From Sthenelais limicola (Eukaryota > Annelida > Polychaeta > Phyllodocida > Sigalionidae): a stretch of 64,000 nt of DNA. The notes under the pieces were generated by a model. The model worked only from the letters and a program-made list of their open reading frames with translations, made no database searches and was not told where the DNA came from. This document shows positions 14,372 to 62,699 of this stretch, in pieces; the stretch's first letter is position 1; each line of letters opens with the position of its first letter. Made by a program: the position numbers and the translations under genes. The stretch spans positions 118,631,374 to 118,695,373 of the forward strand of contig OW804098.1 in NCBI GenBank assembly GCA_942159475.1, written 5' to 3'.

Positions 14372-14375
14372 ATAT

Positions 14376-14768
14376 GAGATGTGTTTCAGGAAAATGAGTC
14401 ATAAGTCGCAAAAAATGGATTTTGAGATATCACCATATTTGAAAAGATGAGATCAAGCCGATTCCAATGATAGTAAACAGTCGAATAATCTAATAAATAT
14501 TTCTAGATTTTAAGTTTGATAATTTCGTTTTTGAAAAAAAAGTTTCCAATATTTCTGGGGGTCAATAAACAGTAAGGTAACTAAATGTAGTCCATATGAG
14601 GACCTTCAAAACGAAAGATATATTACATAGATTGTCCTGAAATTTGATACATCGATTGAGATAACTATAAGTAACACACTCTCCAAAAATCAGAACATTC
14701 TAATAATGAGATCTTGCGAAAAAAATTATGACTTGCGACTTATGACTCATTTTCCTGAAACACATCAC
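14376..14768. mobile_element. MITE-B copy with ATAT target duplication
   Basis: Ends GAGATGTGTTTCAGGAAAAT and its mirror ATTTTCCTGAAACACATCAC. ATAT is duplicated at 14,372-14,375 and 14,769-14,772. About 393 bp, non-coding, inserted in the 80-bp tandem array. Confidence 0.85.
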
Positions 14769-15235
14769 ATATGGGCTGAAGTAAACAGCCTGGTAAAACA
14801 GTATACACCTTTCTCACGTTGACCAATGTTAATAGTGCACATTAACAAAGATGACATAATAACCTAGGCACAAGCTAGAGAGTTTACAGTGCACAGGCCT
14901 CCGCCTTCTCCCTCTCACTGTGCATGTGTGAGTTAGCAGAGAAAAGACTGCATCGGTGAACTATGCAAGGTGGCCTATACAGTATTACTTCATTGTAATT
15001 TATATTAATCTTATACTCTTCCATACATGGACATTTGAATTACCATTAGGGCGACTGGACGTGTAGAGAAACGTGAACGCTTCTGAAACAGGTGAATAGT
15101 AAAGATTGGTATATGGTTGTTGTGTTGTTGAGTTGAGGTATATTGTGTTGAGTGTGTGTATGATTGCTGCTTCAGGCAGGTGCGTTTGACTCAGTATGTG
15201 AGTGGCTTTACACATGGTGGTATATGGGTCAGACT

Positions 15236-42100: not shown

Positions 42101-45100
42101 GACAGTTGCTCCTAAATTATGTGGATTTACTTATACAGATGATCCTTGGGAACATAATGATGTGTTTCTGGAAAATGAGTCATAAGTCGCAAAATTGATA
42201 TTTTTCAAAATGTTTTTTCACAAGATCACATTATTGGAATGTTCTGATTTTTGGAGAGTTTATCACGTGGACTTATATCAATCGGTGTATCAAATTTCAG
42301 GACAATCTATACATAATATCCTTTAGTTTTAAAGGTCCCCATATGAACTACATTTAGTTACTTTACTTTTTATTAACCCCCAGAAATATTGGAAAGTTTT
42401 TTCTCAAAAACGAAAATATCAAACTTAAAATCTAGAAATACTTATAAGATTATTGGACTGTTTACTATCATCGGAAACCCCTTGATCTCACCTTTTCAAA
42501 CCTAATGGTATCTCAAAATCTTTTTTTTGCGACTTATGACTCATTTTCCTGAAATACATCACATATTGGCCTTAATCCATCATCTTGGGCATAGTTCGAG
42601 TAATGCAGGTTTGTTTGAAAACTTCAATAACCTTCCCTTAAGGTGTGCCAAGTCCCTCATTATTTATTTTCTCACATTGGCTACATTGTGAGAGGTGAAG
42701 GTGGCAGAAGCATTCCTGACACCTGTGTGATTTGTCGCTCACTGCAACACTAAAACACAAACAGAAATGCTAGCCAAAAATTCATTATTCACTATCATAA
42801 CTTCTACCCCACGCCAATCTTTTTGCATTCAGATATCATTTGGTTAGTTCAAACATTTTTTTTTACCAGTTTAGTTATAGTAGGAGTGGTCATGATAAGG
42901 GCGGTCATGACAAGACCAACGCAATTTTAGCCCACCGCCTCCCGTTGACGTCAGGCGGCGGACAATCATGATGGGCGGTCCTGGTATAGGGTGGTCATCA
43001 CTTGTACCCCAGGCCTCGGGTGTCCCTAAACGCGCAGACGCCCAGAACAGCCACAACCTCAGGTTCTAATCGCTCATTAGATTTTCATGGGTAGCTATGG
43101 ATCAATACAAAATACCCTATGTGTGAATATCAATACTTACATGTATTCCGGCGTATCCTTGGATGGATATGTGGTGACTTGTATAGTCAGAAACATGGCA
43201 GAGTTGGCTCGTTATAGTATTTATTTTGTGCATTTCTGACGACGATGCGGTAGGAAAAACAAAATGGCATCAGCTTTTTCAGCTAGTTCATGGCACCACC
43301 AGCAGGGGTTAAGACACTGCCGTTATCCACAACTGCCAGAGGGCGCTGCATTAGTAGGCTATATGTGAAACTATAGGATCGTTGGTATAATGAGGTTACT
43401 AAACACCTAGCTTTGAAATAGCTTTAAATTCTATATCATAGTTAAAAGATTATTTAATTTTATGATATTTCATTCTCGTAATGGTTGACAATGCAGTTCA
43501 AAGGATCTATTATAAATAAACATTTATACATTTTAGGGAATATCTTACAATATATTATACACTAATCCCATTGTATTATAATTGTAGAGATGAATGTGGA
43601 GGTGGTGACTGGTAACTACCCGTATGCAGGTACAGACTGCCACATACAGATTGTGTTGTTTGGCCTGCTGGGCAGGAGTAAACCTATTGTAGCATGTGGC
43701 CACCAGGAACAGCGCATTCTGCAGAGGGCATCATCCAAGACCTTCAACATAACCTCTGATGTTGGGCCTGTACAGAAAATAAGGTGAGATAGTAAACCAT
43801 GTAATTATTGAGCTAATGTTGGGCCTGTACAGAAAATAAGGTGAGATAGTAAACCATGTAATTATTGAGCTAATGTTGGGCCTGTACAGAAAATAAGGTG
43901 AGATAATCTACCTTATAATTATAGAGTTAATGTTGGGTATGAAAAGAAAAAGGTGAGATAATGAACCTTAATAATTATTGCATTGATATTGGTCCTGTAC
44001 AGAATAAGGTAAGATAATGAACCTTATGATTATTGAACTGATGTTGGTCCAGTACAGAATAAGGTAAGATAATGAACCTTATATTGAACTGGTGTAGGTT
44101 AGGCAACTCATTAGAACATCTGTGTATGATAATGCGTTTTTTATTGTTGAACTTGTATTAAATATGATATTGGCCTAAAATGAAATAAATAGATGGAACT
44201 TAGCAAGGGGGAAGTCTGTACACTTGTTATTGACCGAGGGAGCGCGGGAAGATAGAGGGCGTTAGCCCGAGATCTTCTGCGCTCCCGAGATACACTATAC
44301 AAGTGTACACTATACACTATAAAAGTGTACAGACTTCACCCGAGTTTTGTTCCATATTTATTACACCCCATTAATAAATAAAGAATATAATTAATTAAAA
44401 ATAAAAGAAGTAATTTAAGTTTTTGGTGGACCTCCTTGTTGTATGCGCCAAGGGTGACATAACTCACATGTTATGCACCACTTTGACCAAGTGTGACATA
44501 CAATGCTGAAGGTATAGGAAGCAACATCACAGGGGTGTAATAAACCAGGCAATTTACTCCTTACAATGAATCTATAAAGAGAACTACCCAAGATTGAAGG
44601 CATAATAAGTTGATAGGCTTGTTGAGTCCTATACAAATGTTAATTAATTGTTTGTTTGGTTCAGATTCATTTCATTAATACATGTATTCAAAATCAATTT
44701 GTTTTGCAGGATAATCAAGGACGCGAAGGGTGAGAGCCCTGATTGGTTTTTGGAAAAGGTATGTGAGCAAACCTACGAAGCAAACATGAATATTTAAAAT
44801 GTCTGAAGTCAGGCATGATTTAAGCATTATTTCTTTGCCCGTTTAGCCTGAGTGAGGTCTATGGGGTCAAACAAAGAGGGATATGATGTCTTTAAGGGGT
44901 CTCTGGTCCAGTTTTATCCCTAAATTGCCCTTGTAACGGACAATCCTAACAGCGGATAGAGTCTGTGGTCGACCCCTAAAGGACTTGGAAGGTTGTGGTT
45001 TGGAGGGAATAGCCTTATGGACATGTGATAGAGAACTCGCTATCGCTCGTCGTCTATCACAAGCCATAAGACTCTTCCCTCCAAACCACAGTCCATAGTA

Positions 45101-52052: not shown

Positions 52053-52137
52053 CTCTAACAGAAAAGGACATGGTATTGTTATTAATTACTTTATGCAGCT
52101 TTAATTGGCATGCAAATAAAGAATGGTGGTGACATAT

Positions 52138-52545
52138 GTGATGTGTTTTAGGAAAATGAGTCACAAGTCGCAAAATTGTTATCTTACAAAGGGATTTATC
52201 CACAGGATATATTTGTGGGAATGTTTTAATTTTTGGGATGCTTAAAGCCTCTTGTAGCCTGAATACATGTACCGAATTTCAGGACACTGTACTAAATATA
52301 TCTATCTATTTCCAGGGTTGTCGTAATAAACATATTTAGGTACTTTACTAGTAATTGCTCACCCCAAAGTACTGCAAACTTTGTTTTCAATAATAAAAAT
52401 ATAACACTTAAAATATAGAAATGCATATTAAATGTCCAACTGTTTACTATCATTAGAATCGGCTTGATCTCCTCTTTTCAAACAAAGTAATATCTCAAAA
52501 TCCATTTTTTGCGACTTAAGACTCATTTTCCTAAAAACGGATCAC
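52138..52545. mobile_element. MITE-B copy with ATAT target duplication
   Basis: GTGATGTGTTTTAGGAAAAT at left, mirror ending GGATCAC at right, 408 bp. ATAT at 52,134-52,137 and 52,546-52,549. Confidence 0.8.
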
Positions 52546-52878
52546 ATATTACTATTGCTATAATGGGTTACTATGTATTGGCATACAGTCAATAGGGTTT
52601 GTATGAAACTGTCAGTAGGAACCAAACTATAATACATACTAGCGAATAAAAGAATTATTATACCAAATGGCATGCTGCAGGTTTATAATTTGGTTGAAAC
52701 AAGATTAAAGAAAGGAACAAGTCTGATCTTCAGCTTGTTGATACCTGGTTATTAAGCTACAGAGAACCATTTCATTAGTGTTACATACTGATTTGTCAGC
52801 TTATTTAGTATTTACTTTACTTGTATGCTAATTACAGTATTTCTGGCCATAACAACGATTGAATACTTTGCATTATTT

Positions 52879-53290
52879 GTGATGCGTTTCAGGAAAATGA
52901 GTCATAAGTCGCAAAAAAAAAGATTTTGAGATACCATTATATTTGAAAAGATGAGATCAGGCCGATTCCAATGATATTAGTAAACAGTCTAATAATTTAA
53001 TAAGTATTTCTAGATTTTACGTTTGATATTTTCGTTTTTGAAAAAAATAGTTTCTATTATTTCTGGGGGTCAATAAACAGTAAAGTACCTAAATGTAGTC
53101 CATATGACGACCTTTAAAACGAAAGGATTTATTATATAGATTGTCCTGAAACTAAATACATCGATTGATATAACTATAAGTGATAAACCTCCCAAAAATT
53201 AGAACATTCGAATAATGTGATCTTGTGAAAAAAACACTTTGAAAAATATCAATTTTGCGACTTATGACTCATTTTCCTGAAACACATCAC
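52879..53290. mobile_element. MITE-B copy with ATTT target duplication
   Basis: GTGATGCGTTTCAGGAAAAT at left, mirror ending ACACATCAC at right, 412 bp. ATTT is repeated directly at 52,875-52,878 and 53,291-53,294, showing that the target duplication is 4 bp and not part of the inverted repeat. Confidence 0.85.
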
Positions 53291-53570
53291 ATTTGCATCA
53301 TGGGTGTCTATTACAAGCATTATTACACACGTGAGCAGTTAGAAAGGTGCCGTTTGGGGATGCCGTTCGGTTGATACGAACCGCTCACGTGTGCCGTTCG
53401 GCCAAAGACGCAATTTGATTGGTGCAGCGTAGGCCAGATGACGTCGTCCCGACCGCGTAACCTAGCCTACAAATTGCGGTGAATGAAGCCTCCTCGAGCT
53501 AAACTATAGGCTTAACAAGTTAAATTTATTTTTTAACATCCAAATAGAGTGTGTAATAAATAGCAAATGG

Positions 53571-54050: not shown

Positions 54051-54402
54051 TTATATGAATATAGAAAATATCCCTGATGAAGATCACTCCACAATTGTGA
54101 TGTGTTTCAGGGAAATGGGTCATAAGTCGCAAAATTGATATTTTTCAAAGTGTTTTTTTTACAAGATCTCTTTATTGAAATGTTCTGATTTTTAGAGGGC
54201 TTAGCACTTATGAATCCATGTAACAAATTTCGGGACATTGTATTAAATATATCATTACGTTTTGAAGGCCTTCGTATGGAGTATATTTAGTTACTTTACT
54301 GGTAATTACCCTTCCAGAAACATTCCAAACTTTTTTTTTCAAAAATAAAAATATCAAACTTGAAATATGGAAATACTTATTACGTGTCATAGTGTTAACT
54401 AT

Positions 54403-55452
54403 TAGTCCAGGGGCTGGTTTCAAAAATAGGGTTTTTTGGGCTTTAGGGTATAACAAAGGTTTTATTACATCAAATGAAAGCTGAGACTCTGGGCTTTCCA
54501 GCCTTATAGGTAAAACATTCTAAAAAGTGTCCATTTGACCTTTGACCTCAGGTCAAAGGTCAAAAAGGAAGAAAATCAGGCCCATACCTGAAAAATCATG
54601 TTTATAAGTCTAATTTAGTGAGAAATTGGTTGATCTTCTTCATTTTTTGTGTGAGCATTTGGGCTAGGGTGATATCAATTTTGTATCTAGGAAAACATTC
54701 TTTAACAAGGTCAAGGTCAAAAAATGGAAGGAAAACTGACCAAAAGCCATGAAAGTTAAAGATATGACCTTTTCCAGTTTCTCTGTAGAGAAAAATATGT
54801 AGTCGTGATAAAAGTTATATAGTCTTCCATAAAGCTGTTGTCATGGCTGCCATTCCTCCTAGGTATCAACTTCCCAGCATGCATTGTTGTTCCACAATCA
54901 GGTCAAAGGTCAAGGTCATGGAAATTTTGGCAATACCCAAAAAGAATGGGTTATCAACTGCTGCTTCTTTGTTTTTTATTTGTTTGTGTTCTAATTACAC
55001 ATGTTTGTAGCCCTCATAGAAACCTTCCATCTGGCAAAAAATATTTGACCTTGAACAAGGTCAAGGTCAAAAGGTCAAGGTCAAATGATGAAAATCAGCT
55101 GCAATTTATAGTACTTACCTTAAATTACTGTCTGCTCTCTTGGTCCTGACAATCCCAAATGATTCAAATATTGATTTATTTCATTCAATACGTCACTGAG
55201 AAAATAATTTGGCATTTTGCCAATTCCAGCATGCATTGTTCTCCTATAATGAGGTCAAAGGTCAAGGTCATTGATATCATGGTAACACCTAGAAATCATG
55301 TGTTATCTAATGTAGCTTCATTATTTTTTATTTGATTTTATTGAAATTACACATGTAAGTAGCTCTAATGGAGACCTTCCATCTTGAGTAAAGGTTTTGA
55401 CCTTGAACTAGGTCAAGGTCAAAAGGTCAAGGTCAAATCGTGAAAATTATCA
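54403..55452. repeat. Left terminal inverted repeat of the 8-kb transposon
   Basis: It contains two tandem subrepeats of about 330 bp, each with CAGCATGCATTGTT, GGTCAAAGGTCAAGGTCAT and ACCTTCCATCT in order. AGGTCA half-sites are frequent, singly as TCAAGGTCA, as AGGTCAAAGGTCA direct repeats, and as a symmetrical block at 54,535-54,564. A 103-codon frame at 54,838-55,149 is part of the repeat and mirrored in the right end; it is not a gene. Confidence 0.85.
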
Positions 55453-55584
55453 TGAAACGAACAATAGTTTTTGCATTTCATGTTTTTGATTGTATTGTAT
55501 ACTTTTTCTTAATGCTTTTTTTGATCTAAGACCTTCCATCTTGAATGAAGGATTTGATAGGGATAAAACTTGATGTAAGAAGAT

Positions 55585-56826
55585 ATGGCTTCTGGGGACA
55601 GCAAATACAATTCATCTTTTACCAAACGCAAGCATGAAAATTCGAACTGTTTTAATGAAGAAAATTCATCATCTAAACGCCTAATAAGGTCCTCGAGCAT
55701 CAAAGCAGATTTTAGCCTGTGCATATTTTGTCAGGATGTAAAGAGATGTAGAAAGAATCGCCGTCAATTAGAGCCCCTTTCAGAATGTAGAACTGTCCAA
55801 GTCGGTAATACTATCTTAGAAGCTGCTAAGCAAAGGGGAGATGAATACCTTTGGCGTAGCATAGCTGTAGGGGATGTGGTATCACTTGAAGTTAAATATC
55901 ACTGAACTTGTATCCAGGCTTATGTTAGTGAAAGAAACATCAAAAGCGCGAAGGTCTCCTCAAGTGAATGTGATCTTAACATACAATATCTGGTGAACAT
56001 TGTACAGCAGGAAGTCTGTGATAAGGGCCATGTGATGTCTATGACCGATATTATACAGAAATATATGGATGTCATCCATGATCTAGGGGAAGGTGGTAAT
56101 CCTGCCAAGGCATATAAAGAACATCATTACCAGAATATGCTGTCAGCCCATTTTGGTCATACAATTGAGTTCTGGCAGTGCACTGGTGGTGCCAGGACTA
56201 CAATTGTTTTTGCAGCTAATTTACCAAAGGGTGCACTAGCTGAGCAGCTTTTTCATGCATCAAGACAACAGCCCATTGAGGATATCACATCTCAAGTCTC
56301 CAGTCAACTTAGCAATGAATGCAATTTGATTCAACAGGTGGCAAAATTGATACATAAAGATGTTGGTTCAATTAATGATCTCCCCTGGCCAACGGAACCC
56401 CATCACATTACTGAGGAATGTGCACATCACATGGTTCCAAATAGATTGTACAATCTGATAGCTCTCTTGGTAACTGGAGGTGATAAAAAGGAGGACTTGA
56501 GTATCACAGAAGAGAAAATTAAAGTCTCAGAGTCTACTGATGTAAAAATTCTATCCCTTGCTCAGGATATCATCTATGCTGTCCGCCATGGTTATGTAAA
56601 GATGCCAAAGCACATTGCACTTGCGATGAGTATCCGTCAGATGACTGGAAACATGACTCTTTTGACAATGCTAAATAGATTGGGTCACTGCATATCAAAA
56701 TCCAAATTACAGGAGTTAGAGACTGCACTGGCTGAGAAAAGGCTCTCAGAAGAAAATGTCTTTACAGTTCCCAAAAATATTCGCCTACATGTGCCAACAA
56801 CATTGACGGTCCCTACAAAATATTGA
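55585..56826 (+). pseudogene. Transposon protein, N-terminal part
   Basis: ATG 55,585 opens one frame of 413 codons broken only by TGA at 55,903. A CIFC pair at about residue 48 and KYH-x-TC around that TGA make a CxxC...HxxC zinc-finger-like segment of about 60 residues. After it come an acidic/helical region and segments such as KEHHYQNMLSAHFG, MPKHIALAMSIRQMTGN and LLTMLNRLGH that I recall as typical of large uncharacterised proteins common in aquatic invertebrate genomes. Near 56,785 the likely continuation (NNIDGPYKILNSHYLSMG) is in another frame and ends at GTAAGT, so a frameshift and an intron follow. Family assignment rests on recall. Confidence 0.6.
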
Positions 56827-57035
56827 ACAGTCATTACTTGAGTATGGGTAAGTTTTAGAATAATATCTTTTTTCAGTTTTGTGAATTGTAAACCAAGGAA
56901 ATTCAAAGCAGTTAAGCTATAAGTTGTCCTCAACCTGCCAAACTCTTAAAAATAGACAAAAAATTTGGATGACTTTCTTAACAATCCATGACTATGCCTT
57001 AACTAATAAGTTTTCCATTTCTTTATTCAAAACAA

Positions 57036-59090
57036 AGATCTACCAGCCGAGTTGGGCCCAAACAAGTACAGAATGCGATGGCATTAGTGCAAAGTCTATC
57101 TGCTATTGAAGACAAACATGTGTGAATGAAAGATAAGGCTTGGTTCCTATCTAGATTCCTGAATGATTACCACTATGGTGAAGATAACCAGCAAAATGTG
57201 CCTGGCTGGTTTGGTTTCAACCATGCTTTAAATCAGAGTGACACATCACCAAGCCCACATAGAATTGCATATCTACCAGTCATCAATGCGTCTCCAACGT
57301 CCATGTCCTCTGTCTACACGCTGATGTCTCGTTCAGTTGAGATGTGCAATGCCATCCATGAGGTGACTGATGAGGATCGTAAAAGACCACCTACAATCAT
57401 AGTGTTAGATGAGGCCATCTATGCAAAAGCACTACAAGTCCAATCTTGATGCAAGGAGTTTGACAATGTTATCCTCAGAATGGGTCCTTTTCATATAAAA
57501 ATGAATTTCATGGCTATCCTAGGGAAGCGATTTGGATCTGCTGGTTTACGTGATATCATGATTGAGTCAAACCTGCTAGCAATGGGGTCTGTTGATGCTG
57601 TCTTATCTGGGCGCCACTACAACCCTGGGATTAGATGTCATCGCTTAATGTCTGAAGCACTTGAAAGGTTGCGCTGGTTGGAGTTCATGAAATCGATGGA
57701 CAGCAGTGATACCTTGAACTTTGAAAGTTTGAAACCGTATCTAATAAAAGTACAGGATGAGATGGATAGGGAATCATTAGAACAACTTGTATCTTGCAAT
57801 GAATTCGTTTATCTCCAGGATCGTTTTGAAGAGTTTTGCAAAAATCTTGGACCAAATGGCATATTTTGGTCTTCCTACATATCTATGGTTGATCTACTCT
57901 ATGTTCTGATGCGCACTGTTAGAGAAGGTGATTGGGATTTGCACCTCAAGTGTATCCATGAGATGATCCCATGGTACTTTGCCTATGACAGGCAGAACTA
58001 TGCTCGGTATTTAACTGTATATCTGATTCAGATGCTGTCTCTACCTAGTACCCTCAGGGAAGTAGATTTTTTCATGCATTCTGGGAGATTTGGAGTCCAG
58101 TTGTCTGAGCATAACAAGTTTGGAAGGGTTGCGGAAGGCCAAACAATAGAAATGACAATAAATAAGGACACCAAAACAAGAGGAGGCATCATTGGTTTTA
58201 GCCTTAAACCTGAAGCAGTGATGAAGTGGATGTTGCTACATAGCCACCGGGCAGAGTACAGAAATATCTGTGCTGGGTTAACAGGGGCAAGCAACAGTGA
58301 TTATTCCTGCCATAAAGATGCAACTCCCAGGAGAATAGAGCTTGATGAAAGCAGCGTTCGTTTTGTAATGACCTGCATCCAAAACTGGATAAATCCCTTC
58401 AGCAATGATGAGCAAATAGTTCACTTGGCCTCAGGAAGAACACCACCTGATGGAGCCGCTGATCATCTAATCGGAGCATACCAGCTGGGATCTGACGCTG
58501 CTAAAGCTTTTATATATGACCGATTCGATGCAACAGGACAAGTTGAATTGTACACACCAATAAAAAGGCTTGGACTCCTTACTTTTGCTTCGATACTAGA
58601 AAAATCAGCCAAAAAGAAGTATGTTCACACAACCCTTGACATGTTTGGGCGTTTGCTTGCTATTGGAAGGACTCGAGACATACCTTTAGAGAAACTCTTA
58701 TCGTATGAACTAACAAACTTGCCTCTTGCCATTGCAACACCTGAAGGTAGCCTTGTAAAGACAGTCAAGTCCAAAATTGTTACTCAGTTGGAATTGAAGT
58801 ACACCAACACTCCTAGAGGGACTGCCCCAAGAGCCCTTATTTTTTATGGGAATGCTATTCTCCACACAACCAACTTTAAGGAGGGGATGACTTATGCTAA
58901 TCTAGCGGAAATGATTTTTGACAGGATCATGGCTTTCTGCCCAAACAATGGGAGTGTACACTGGGTTGCAGACATGTATTCACCTACATCAATAAAGTGC
59001 ACAGAATTAGAAAAGAGATGTGCAAATGCTGGCGGTCATGAAATAGTATATCATATCAGGAAATCAGAAAGTCTGCCATCAAATCAAAAA
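57036..59090 (+). pseudogene. Transposon protein, central part
   Basis: One frame is open from about 57,003, with TGA at 57,123 and 57,447 as its only breaks, up to an A-run at 59,088-59,093 where the frame shifts. Notable segments in order: WFGFNHAL; PTIIVLDEAIYAKAL; VILRMGPFHIKMNF, then GKRFGSAGLRDIMIES; FAYDRQNYARYL; TIEMTINKDTKTRGGIIGFS; LELKYTNTP. The Asp in VLDEA, the His in GPFH and the acidic residues of the TIEMTINKD motif are candidates for a transposase-like active centre, but no known DDE pattern is clear to me. Confidence 0.6.
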
Positions 59091-60114
59091 AGCACTTTCG
59101 TCATCAATATTCAAAGAGACATTGACTTCATTTTTCATTACAATCTGGTCCTCAGATCTCTACTCAAGTCGATATTCAGGGCGCATATTATATGCTACAA
59201 ACAAAGGCGAGTGCATCCGCATTTGTGAGACCGAAACAACCAAGGTAGCTCAGCTTACTTCTAACCACCTAGAAGCAGACACCAGAATGTTTGTTCACGC
59301 TCATCATGAAGCCAAACAAGGAACAAAGGAGATCATAATACACAGCCCGGACACAGATGTCATCATAATAGGGTTATATGCGGCCAGATATATCAATGCT
59401 AAACTAATGGTCAATGCTGCAAAACCGGGTAACAGGTATATAACTTCCTTTGCTATATTAGAGAAAAACATTCTGCAAAAGATCGCACTGACTAAATTAG
59501 ATCATCATGTTCTGATACTTTTCAAATCTCTTCAAAAGTCCTTTCATAAATACATTTTAAGCAAATACATATGACTTATGCCCCTAATGCTTTTTTGCAG
59601 ATTGATTGATCTTTCCAATTCTGCCGAAAATCTTGGGGAGAATGTATGTGAAGCAACCATTGGATACCATGCTTTAACCGGTTCCGATTCAACAAGTGCT
59701 TTTTTGGGGAAGGGCAAAGTTACTGGTATGCGGTTGCTGAAATCAAGCCCCAGTTTCCAAATGAGCATGGTGAAAATAGGACAAGAATTTGACATGCCAG
59801 ATGACATTTTGTCAGCGGTGGAGACTGCTGTATGTCAGCTCTATGGATATGCTCAGATAGAGAACATTAATGAAGTGCGGTACAAAATGTTTGGGAAATC
59901 TACCAGTGATTCAACCCGTTTACCTCCATCTAAATTACCACTTCAGAACCATATCAAAAGAGCAAACTATCAGGCAACGCTGTGGAAGCTTTGTATAGTC
60001 CCAGAACCAACACTTCCAAGCCCATGTGAGCATGGCTGGAGGGTAGAAGACAATGCCCTTAGTGTTGAGTGGATGGCCATACCTTCAGCACCTTCACAAC
60101 TAACACAGCAATAA
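59090..60114 (+). pseudogene. Transposon protein, nuclease-like C-terminal part
   Basis: After the A-run the frame continues (KKALSSSIFKETLTSF ... NKGECIRICE) to HLEADTRMFVHAHHEA and IIIHSPDTDVIIIGL. The exon ends at CAG|GTATAT (59,435); a 165-bp intron ends at TTTTTTGCAG (59,600), and the frame resumes LIDLSNSAENLG, GYHALTGSDSTSAFLGKGKV. EAD, SPDTD and the GSD...GKGK helix-turn occur in the order and spacing of FEN1/XPG-family nucleases (EAEA, SEDSD, GCDY...GIGPK). That is an inference from motif order. It ends WMAIPSAPSQL and two stops at 60,112. Confidence 0.55.
59436..59600 (+). other. Intron in the transposon gene
   Basis: GTATAT...TTTTTTGCAG, 165 bp. Removing it joins KPGNR to LIDLSNS. 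It is a multiple of three in length, but reading through adds unrelated residues and a TGA. An intact intron supports cut-and-paste (DNA) transmission, since retrocopies would lack it. Confidence 0.7.
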
Positions 60115-60229
60115 TAGATGTGGATGCAAGAAGCAGGGCCTTGCTTGCACTGATGCCTGCAAGTGTGGTGATAACTGTTCAAATCAGCAGAAAAACATTA
60201 CTCCATGTGAATCTGATGATGAACTTTGA
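60104..60229 (+). pseudogene. Transposon protein, Cys-rich tail in a shifted frame
   Basis: In the +1 frame relative to the previous segment: RCGCKKQGLACTDACKCGDN, then CSNQQKN, an acidic end and TGA at 60,227-60,229. The pattern C-x-C-x6-C-x3-C-x-C-x3-C is a compact zinc-binding or CXC-like tail. One frameshift near 60,105 separates it from the preceding frame. Confidence 0.55.
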
Positions 60230-60556
60230 GAAATATGAAACAAGGAGCACTTCAGGCAAATAAATGCTGTGGATTTGTCTTTGCTAGATTAAAAAAGATA
60301 CCCGGAAATATGATAATTGTTGGACCAATATGAAAAGATAATTTGTACATAACATGTGTCACACACAAGAGGTAAAAATATCTAAGCTGTATTCATAAAT
60401 ATGTATAATGTTCAGGCTACCCATTTTTAAGATGAGGAACCTATAACCTTTATGGGGTTCACATTATAGTTCATTACTTTTTGACAGCAACCTCCAAAGC
60501 TGTGTATGAAATGTTCAAAAGTGTATATTAATTGGACGAAAAACATTTTTACTGAG

Positions 60557-60562
60557 AATAAA
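60557..60562 (+). terminator. Candidate polyadenylation signal of the transposon gene
   Basis: AATAAA about 330 bp after the Cys-rich tail, before the right inverted repeat. Confidence 0.4.
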
Positions 60563-61229
60563 TTTGGACATGAATAAATCAGATATCTGACTTATTAGAT
60601 TTAGTACATATTGGAAGTAGCAAAATAGGGAAATATCATTGTGTTAAAGGTGTCGAAAAGTTATATCTTGTAACCAAGGAAACACTATGAGGATAGACTA
60701 TGAGTGTCAGTTGAAGGGTCAAATCCAGTGAAGCATACCGCACAACAATCAATATGCTTCGTACAATCAAGATTTTGTATGTGTTATAGATAATTTGTCA
60801 ACATGTTCAGGACATAACTAGCCCACTTTTTCATTGATTAATTCATTGATCCCTTCCCCACTTTTCTAAACAAACATTTTTTCTCAACGCCGCCATGTGT
60901 GCGGCACTGAGAGTAAAAATGGAAACAAAACATCATTGTAAGCATAAATCCTAAGCTCAAATGGACCTGCAAAACATTGCAAAAGATATTTCAGTAGGCG
61001 CAAATGGTTCTTGATTTATGTCTATGTGGTCTTATGGGGGCAACATTTACCCTGCTTAATACTTTTGAACTTGACCCCATTAACAGACAGCTGGGAATGC
61101 CAAAACGTTTAAATATAATCTAATTGACATAATTATTTGATAGAATAATTCAATATTCAGATTATTAAGGATTGTAAGAATCCAAGGAGCAGGCAGCAAT
61201 TCCAGGTATGTACTACATATTACAGATAA
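60563..61229. other. Unique 3' part of the transposon
   Basis: AT-rich noncoding sequence between the gene and the right inverted repeat. Nothing further recognised. Confidence 0.4.
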
Positions 61230-62419
61230 TTTTCACGATTTGACCTTGACCTTTTGACCTTGACCTTGTTTAAGGTCAAAACCTTTACCCAAGATGGAAG
61301 GTCTAGAGCTATTTACATGTGCAATTTCAATGAAATCAAATGAAAAATAATGAAGCTACATTAGATAACACATGATTTCTAGGTATTACCATGATATCAA
61401 TGACCTTGACCTTTGACCTCATTATAGGAGAATGATGCATGCTGGGATTGGCAAAATGCCAAATTATTTTCTCAGTGACGTATTGAATGAAATAAATCAA
61501 TATTTGAATCATTTGGGATTGTCAGGACCAAGAGAGCAGACAGTAATTTAAGGTAAGTACTATAAATTCCAGCTGATTTTCATCATTTGACCTTGACCTT
61601 TTGATCTTGACCTTGTTCAAGGTCAAATATTTTTTGCCAGATGGAAGGTTTCGATGAGGGCTATATACATGTGTAATTAGAACACAAACAAATAAAAAGC
61701 AAAGAATCAGCAGTCGATAACCCATACTTTTTGGGTATTGCCAAAATTTCCATGACCTTTGATCTTTGACCTCATTATAGGTGAACAATGCATGCTGGGA
61801 TTGGCGAAATGCCAAATTATTTTCTCAGTATTTTCTCAAACAAATAAAAAACAAAGAAGCAGCAGTTGATAACCCATTCTTTTTGGGTATTGCCAAAATT
61901 TCCATGACCTTGACCTTTGACCTGATTGTGGAACAACAATGCATGCTGGGAAGCTGATACCTAGGAGGAATGGCAGCCATGACAACAGCTTTATGGAAGA
62001 CTATATGACTTTTATCAAGACTACATATTTTTCTCTACAGAGAAACTGGAAAAGGTCATATCCTTAATTTTCATGGCTTTTGATCAGTTTCCTTCTATTT
62101 TGTGACCTTGACCTTGCTAAAGAATGTTTTCCTAGATACACAATTGATTTCACCCTAGCCCAAATGCTCACACAAAAAATGAAGAAGATCAACCAATTTC
62201 TCACTAAATTAGACATATAAACATGATTTTTCAGGTATGGGCCTGATTTTCTTCCTTTTTGACCTTTGACCTGAGGTCAAAGGTCAAATGGACACTTTTT
62301 AGAATGTTTTACCTATAAGGCTGGAAAGCCCAGAGTCTCAGCTTTCATTTGATGTAATAAAACCTTTGTTATACCCTAAAGCCCAAAAAACCCTATTTTT
62401 GAAACCAGCCCCTGGACTA
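61230..62419. repeat. Right terminal inverted repeat of the 8-kb transposon
   Basis: Mirror of the left repeat but about 140 bp longer: the block with AAATAAAAA-CAAAGAA, CAGCAGT-GATAACCCAT and TTTTTGGGTATTGCC occurs twice (about 61,690-61,830 and 61,840-61,900), a local duplication. The same AGGTCA-type motifs are present (as TGACCT on the plus strand). The 97-codon minus frame at 61,522-61,815 is the counterpart of the left-end frame. Confidence 0.85.
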
Positions 62420-62699
62420 TATCATTGGAATCACCATTTTCTCCTCTTTCTAAATATGGTGATATCTGAAAATCCAATTTTTGCGACTTATGACTCATTT
62501 TCCTGGAACACATCACAATTGATGGGTATAAGGTGGGCATAACACTAAATATAATTTGGTGTCCAGAGGGTACATTTAAATTGTGGAAATGTCATTCATA
62601 CAAAATTTGTTTTACAATATCTTAATGAAGCCAATAACTATTTTTAAATTAATAAAATAAATAAATGAATGAATATCAATTGAAATAGTTACTTTGCAC

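Follow-up and report, generated by a model that had tools for sequence, protein, structure and literature searches.

A coding-defective, very probably AcademX-type DNA transposon with AGGTCA arrays in its inverted arms in Sthenelais limicola

The Academ superfamily of DNA transposons (PMC4455052, citing Kapitonov and Jurka 2010) is counted among the DDD/E superfamilies (PMC9587614). AcademX elements are described with a D-D-E triad, a nuclease and target-site duplications of 3 or 4 bp, and AcademH elements with duplications of 9 or 10 bp and a helicase (PMC10045372). Curated Academ consensus elements from a survey that includes bivalves average 5,565 bp (PMC10294476). Here we describe an 8,017-bp element (54403..62419, gene on the plus strand) in a 64,000-nucleotide stretch of the annelid Sthenelais limicola (assembly GCA_942159475.1, contig OW804098.1, positions 118,631,374 to 118,695,373 of the forward strand), which is called the window below. 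With a probability of about 0.9, we read this element as a cut-and-paste DNA transposon of the AcademX type, within the Academ superfamily, whose gene is defective in this copy. The observed basis is its termini, its 3-bp duplications, an empty site, an intact gene in three other copies and conserved residues, to which a predicted XPG/FEN nuclease fold is added.

Ends, target site and genomic copies

The element belongs to a family that we call family A. It has the termini TAGTCCAGG / CCTGGACTA, its first letters being TAGTCCAGGGGCTGG and its last CCAGCCCCTGGACTA. The two terminal inverted repeat arms, neither of which has a strand, measure about 1.05 kb (5' arm, 54403..55456) and about 1.19 kb (3' arm, 61225..62419). 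Both contain AGGTCA arrays and are composed of repeat units of about 350 bp (about 347 bp in the 3' arm). Four pairs of inverted-repeat blocks connect them, namely 54403-54734 with 62088-62419 and 54733-54986 with 61837-62090 (both 98% identical), and 54912-55367 with 61304-61759 and 55372-55451 with 61225-61304 (both 96%). These pairs bear out the ends, the length and the imperfect inverted repeats of 1.05-1.19 kb that an initial annotation, made from the sequence alone, had proposed.

Directly outside the element, the trinucleotide TAT is present on the left (54400..54402) and on the right (62420..62422). Flank alignment places these bases in an interrupted copy of the repeat MITE-B, of which the left part is 54092..54402 and the right part 62420..62524. 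When the element-free flanks with one TAT were compared with the other MITE-B copies of the window, 10 alignments crossed the junction, the best four at 75-79% identity. In the copy at 14375-14769 the junction ACTATCATTGGAATC is uninterrupted; the other copies have at least one substitution there, and in the best-scoring alignment (52871-53295) the TAT adjoins a gap of 3 bases. None of the aligned copies has the doubled TAT of the element flanks, which agrees with the earlier observation of a single TAT in intact MITE-B. Insertion into a MITE-B copy with a 3-bp duplication is thus confirmed at the window site. MITE-B itself is about 400 bp long and numerous in the window; the copies at 52871-53295, 14375-14769, 42158-42568 and 52137-52532 are those 75-79% identical to the interrupted one.

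With the 5' arm as query, the same 1.13-Gb genome gave at least 98 match rows, a lower bound since scoring covered the best 40 of 172 candidates. All eight family-A copies with both ends read, each at a different site, are flanked by an exact 3-bp duplication (tat, ata, taa, tta, aaa, att, tta, tag), and 23 of the 24 duplicated bases are A or T. This count comprises the window copy and seven further full-length copies, with five one-ended family-A loci left out.

There is also a sister family B with ends TAGTCCTGGGGC, whose arms are about 66% identical to the window arm over the first ~680 bp, the best-aligning part. A 3-bp duplication was found in two (ttt, gtc) of the three family-B elements with both ends read. 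Family B (TAGTCCTGGGG ends) was also considered as a carrier of the gene, but 0 of 14 fetched loci had a protein match, with the window element as positive control; for most of these loci the sequence covered was the first 10 kb or so from one end, and autonomous family-B copies may exist. One family-B element (L029+L030+L031, G000:C1:49849618-49870438) spans 20.8 kb between gtc duplications, and no Academ-protein match was found in it. It contains reverse-transcriptase and tyrosine-recombinase-like frames, which we take from their motifs to be those of a nested DIRS-type retroelement; similar frames occur in locus L034.

An intact gene elsewhere and its damage in the window

The same open three-exon gene is present in three copies of the element (C1:78955706-78966197, C8:31553571-31564416 and C2:122645125-122655495). 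Its coding sequence, with the stop codon counted, is 4,470 bases long and free of premature stops; the introns measure 190 and 165 bp in the C1 copy, and joining the exons gives a protein of 1,489 amino acids. Coding identity to the C1 copy is 99.87% and 99.78% for the other two, and no frame of at least 150 amino acids besides the three exons was found in these intact copies. The three-exon model is supported by the homolog P0013, a single-frame protein of 1,558 amino acids that aligns along residues 46-1480 at 32% identity.

In the window, all parts of the gene lie on the plus strand. Exon 1 (55585..56847) encodes an N-terminal Cys/His motif, and exon 2 (57038..59435) encodes the region of the second catalytic Asp (model D593, codon 57408..57410), a helical insertion, the catalytic Glu (model E840, codon 58149..58151) and the first part of an XPG-like nuclease, including its first Asp (model D1072, codon 58845..58847). 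Exon 3 (59601..60229) adds the last XPG motif, LTGSDSTSAFLGKGK, and a Cys-rich tail. Intron 1 (56848..57037, 190 bp, GTAAGT...AAAG) and intron 2 (59436..59600, 165 bp, GTATAT...GCAG) retain their length and GT/AG borders. The large plus-strand gene with at least one intact intron seen in the initial annotation therefore stands, now with two introns.

The gene of the window copy is not intact, a point absent from that annotation. There are four premature stops, among them one in exon 1 (55903-55905) and interruption of exon 2, and 180 coding bases are missing in runs of 143, 5 and 32; the lost stretch of exon 1 includes the D410 codon. Exon 3 is damaged near its end, and D1072 is replaced by Tyr. 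The same Asp-to-Tyr change occurs in copies C7, C5 and C8b, all otherwise defective, and the Asp is retained in the three intact copies and in C4. It is possible that the Tyr copies form a defective sub-lineage spread in trans. Stop counts for C4, C5 and C8b (10, 26 and 16) are overstated because their alignments were forced across regions absent from those copies; counts for the window copy, C1, C8a and C2 are free of this effect.

The window copy is dead as a gene and unable to make a working protein, with both ends intact. Because the ends are intact, it can probably be mobilised in trans by the protein of intact copies. There is good evidence that the family was recently active, since near-identical undamaged copies lie at other genome sites. 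Related proteins are also widespread outside the window family. P0013 as query against the same genome gave at least 37 match rows (best 30 of 1,987 candidates), and at least 16 loci outside family A have open frames of more than 1,300 amino acids with no stop in the match. The frame lengths seem to be added up over neighbouring matches, and one of the sixteen (C8:31476568) is apparently a sum of this kind. Two copies of one related lineage have TAGGCC...GGCCTA ends and 3-bp duplications (taa, gta), which were read manually one base inside the alignment border.

Protein layout and assignment to AcademX

The protein is laid out as an N-terminal Cys/His motif, a putative D-D-E domain (D410, D593, E840), a nuclease with a predicted XPG/FEN1/EXO1 fold and a C-terminal Cys-rich module. 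In an alignment of 49 homologs the triad is near-invariant, and the strand-helix order of the modelled D-D-E region is compatible with an RNase H fold into which a helical segment has been inserted. The nuclease fold was predicted by a structural search of the model, and the region contains the acidic motifs IFDG, VADMY..SIK, LEAD, SPDTD and TGSD..GKG. Fold and motifs are shared with the XPG/FEN1/EXO1/XRN nucleases, which differ in that the nuclease here is joined to a D-D-E transposase-like domain within a transposon. Each of the nine Cys of the C-terminal module is found in at least 37 of the 39-40 homologs aligned at that position (of 49; 9-10 gaps), and the N-terminal motif probably binds zinc and DNA. 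In a working scheme, the D-D-E domain would cleave at both ends and insert these into target DNA with a stagger of 3 bp. During excision or the repair of gaps, the XPG-like nuclease might trim branched intermediates, flaps or overhangs, and the AGGTCA motifs of the arms could act as subterminal binding sites.

With AcademX this element shares the 3-bp duplication (8 of 8 family-A copies) and a large protein combining a putative D-D-E triad with a nuclease, of XPG/FEN fold by our prediction. Its two short introns and its kilobase arms, in which ~350-bp units carry AGGTCA arrays, may set it apart. AcademH belongs to the same superfamily in print but differs in its 9-10-bp duplication, and no helicase was detected at E <= 1 in Pfam scans of six window pieces and six homologs. 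Sub-threshold matches in these scans to MIS13, HipA_C, SAWADEE and DUF488-N3a were taken as chance. A 592-amino-acid window piece had no match to PDB sequences at E <= 10.

Several points weigh against the assignment. It was made by printed description and not by a sequence match to a named Academ element. An XPG-like nuclease is reportedly part of AcademX in the Academ papers of 2010 (Kapitonov and Jurka) and 2020 (Kojima), and our literature search found no paper joining Academ with an XPG nuclease among those listed; the likeness of the Cys-rich module is to the Cys8 module of Academ. For the D-D-E part, structural searches brought no convincing match to a solved transposase: the rows obtained were to RAG, with E values of about 1 or higher, in lists that a single domain filled. 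The Pfam match for the element is a sub-threshold, mid-protein one to DUF6589 (PF20231; 17 bits against a cut-off of 27, E 0.0025), a family of unknown function on which the literature search found no paper; homolog P0005 matches it at E 0.00074, also below the curated cut-off. Finally, the family-B locus L040, with both ends recognised, lacks a matching 3-bp duplication (ttg/taa), perhaps because it consists of two ends of different copies.

The main rival idea is a separate superfamily with an AcademX-like layout of D-D-E domain and XPG nuclease, arisen independently or split off very early and deserving its own name. No transposon-named match is among the matches listed in three protein searches (12; the best 120 of 295; 26), and within the same matches the precomputed PF20231 label is found for 3 of 120 and 3 of 26 homologs, DUF6589 being the only Pfam link. 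Those homologs listed that name an organism come from a fish, an octocoral, a parasitoid wasp and a stick insect, and all are uncharacterized or hypothetical proteins; the initial annotation had anticipated such labels correctly, but had confined them to aquatic invertebrates. We nevertheless regard a separate superfamily as quite improbable. The 3-bp duplication and the nuclease are features given for AcademX in print (PMC10045372). From transposase profiles, Academ is reported to be abundant in bivalves (PMC10294476), so that Academ-named elements are evidently widely catalogued in animals. The earlier view of a DNA transposon outside the superfamilies it listed is supported, with 3-bp duplications, but an "undescribed class" is not, as the features match printed AcademX; we take the family to be new but its kind to be known, not an unknown superfamily.

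Other assignments fare worse. KDZ, hAT, P, piggyBac, Kolobok and Tc1/mariner elements make 8-bp, TTAA or TA duplications, unlike the 3-bp duplications of varied sequence seen here. Among animal elements that duplicate 3 bp, PIF/Harbinger is the best known; it has a Harbinger transposase and duplicates TWA, which fits three of the eight sites (taa, tta, tta) but not the other five. Pfam scans of six window pieces and six homologs gave no match of Harbinger type, and the protein has 1,489 amino acids with a predicted XPG-fold nuclease, making this origin hardly credible. Equally hard to credit is a chance composite of two unrelated repeats around unrelated coding sequence, which the damage to the window copy, taken alone, might suggest. 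The initial annotation had named differing ends or duplications among copies as the sign of such a composite and had called for a genome search with the termini and alignment of several flanks; this yielded 8 of 8 copies that share the ends, carry pieces of one gene and are flanked by exact 3-bp duplications, which refutes it.

AGGTCA arrays in the arms

The element carries an unusual concentration of one motif in its ends. The first 1,150 bp of the 5' arm contain 23 AGGTCA (18 forward, 5 reverse), compared with 0.6 on average and at most 4 in 200 dinucleotide shuffles, and the last 1,150 bp of the 3' arm contain 20 (5 forward, 15 reverse). In the remaining 55,983 bases of the window there are 29. 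Of the longer form TCAAGGTCA, the arms have 9 and 5 copies and the sequence outside them has 0.

The result we least expected came from alignment of the window arm with four family-B arms, in which bases inside AGGTCA motifs are 83-89% identical and the remainder about 55%. For each of the four, the observed value was reached by 0 of 1,045 circular shifts, a control that ignores homogenisation between repeats within one arm; these four of 15 family-B arms are closely related and do not count as independent of one another. AGGTCA occurs 13-16 times in nine of the 15 arms and 5-9 times in six (L033, L034, L036, L037, L039, L041), the latter aligning to only part of the family-B reference arm. 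A general association of the arrays with the protein family was ruled out by the one other lineage read, which has 1 and 0 in its ends.

On the plainest reading, the arrays would be subterminal transposase-binding repeats. TCAAGGTCA is given as the consensus of the receptor Esrrb, Nr5a2 preferring a form with one base changed (PMC8451941). The motif may accordingly be read in a second way, in which the element would have taken over a host nuclear receptor (ERR/NR5A-type) for germ-line promoter activity or as an accessory end factor, rather than relying on its own protein alone; we consider this unlikely.

The family is of a kind already known and has an unusual, conserved motif array in its ends. 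To our knowledge, there has been hardly any bench work on Academ elements. The three intact copies at different sites, together with the at least 16 further related open-frame loci, are natural and probably active templates, and the intact copies allow the role of an XPG-type nuclease in transposition to be addressed. The conserved AGGTCA arrays offer a concrete point from which end recognition or dependence on the host can be tested.
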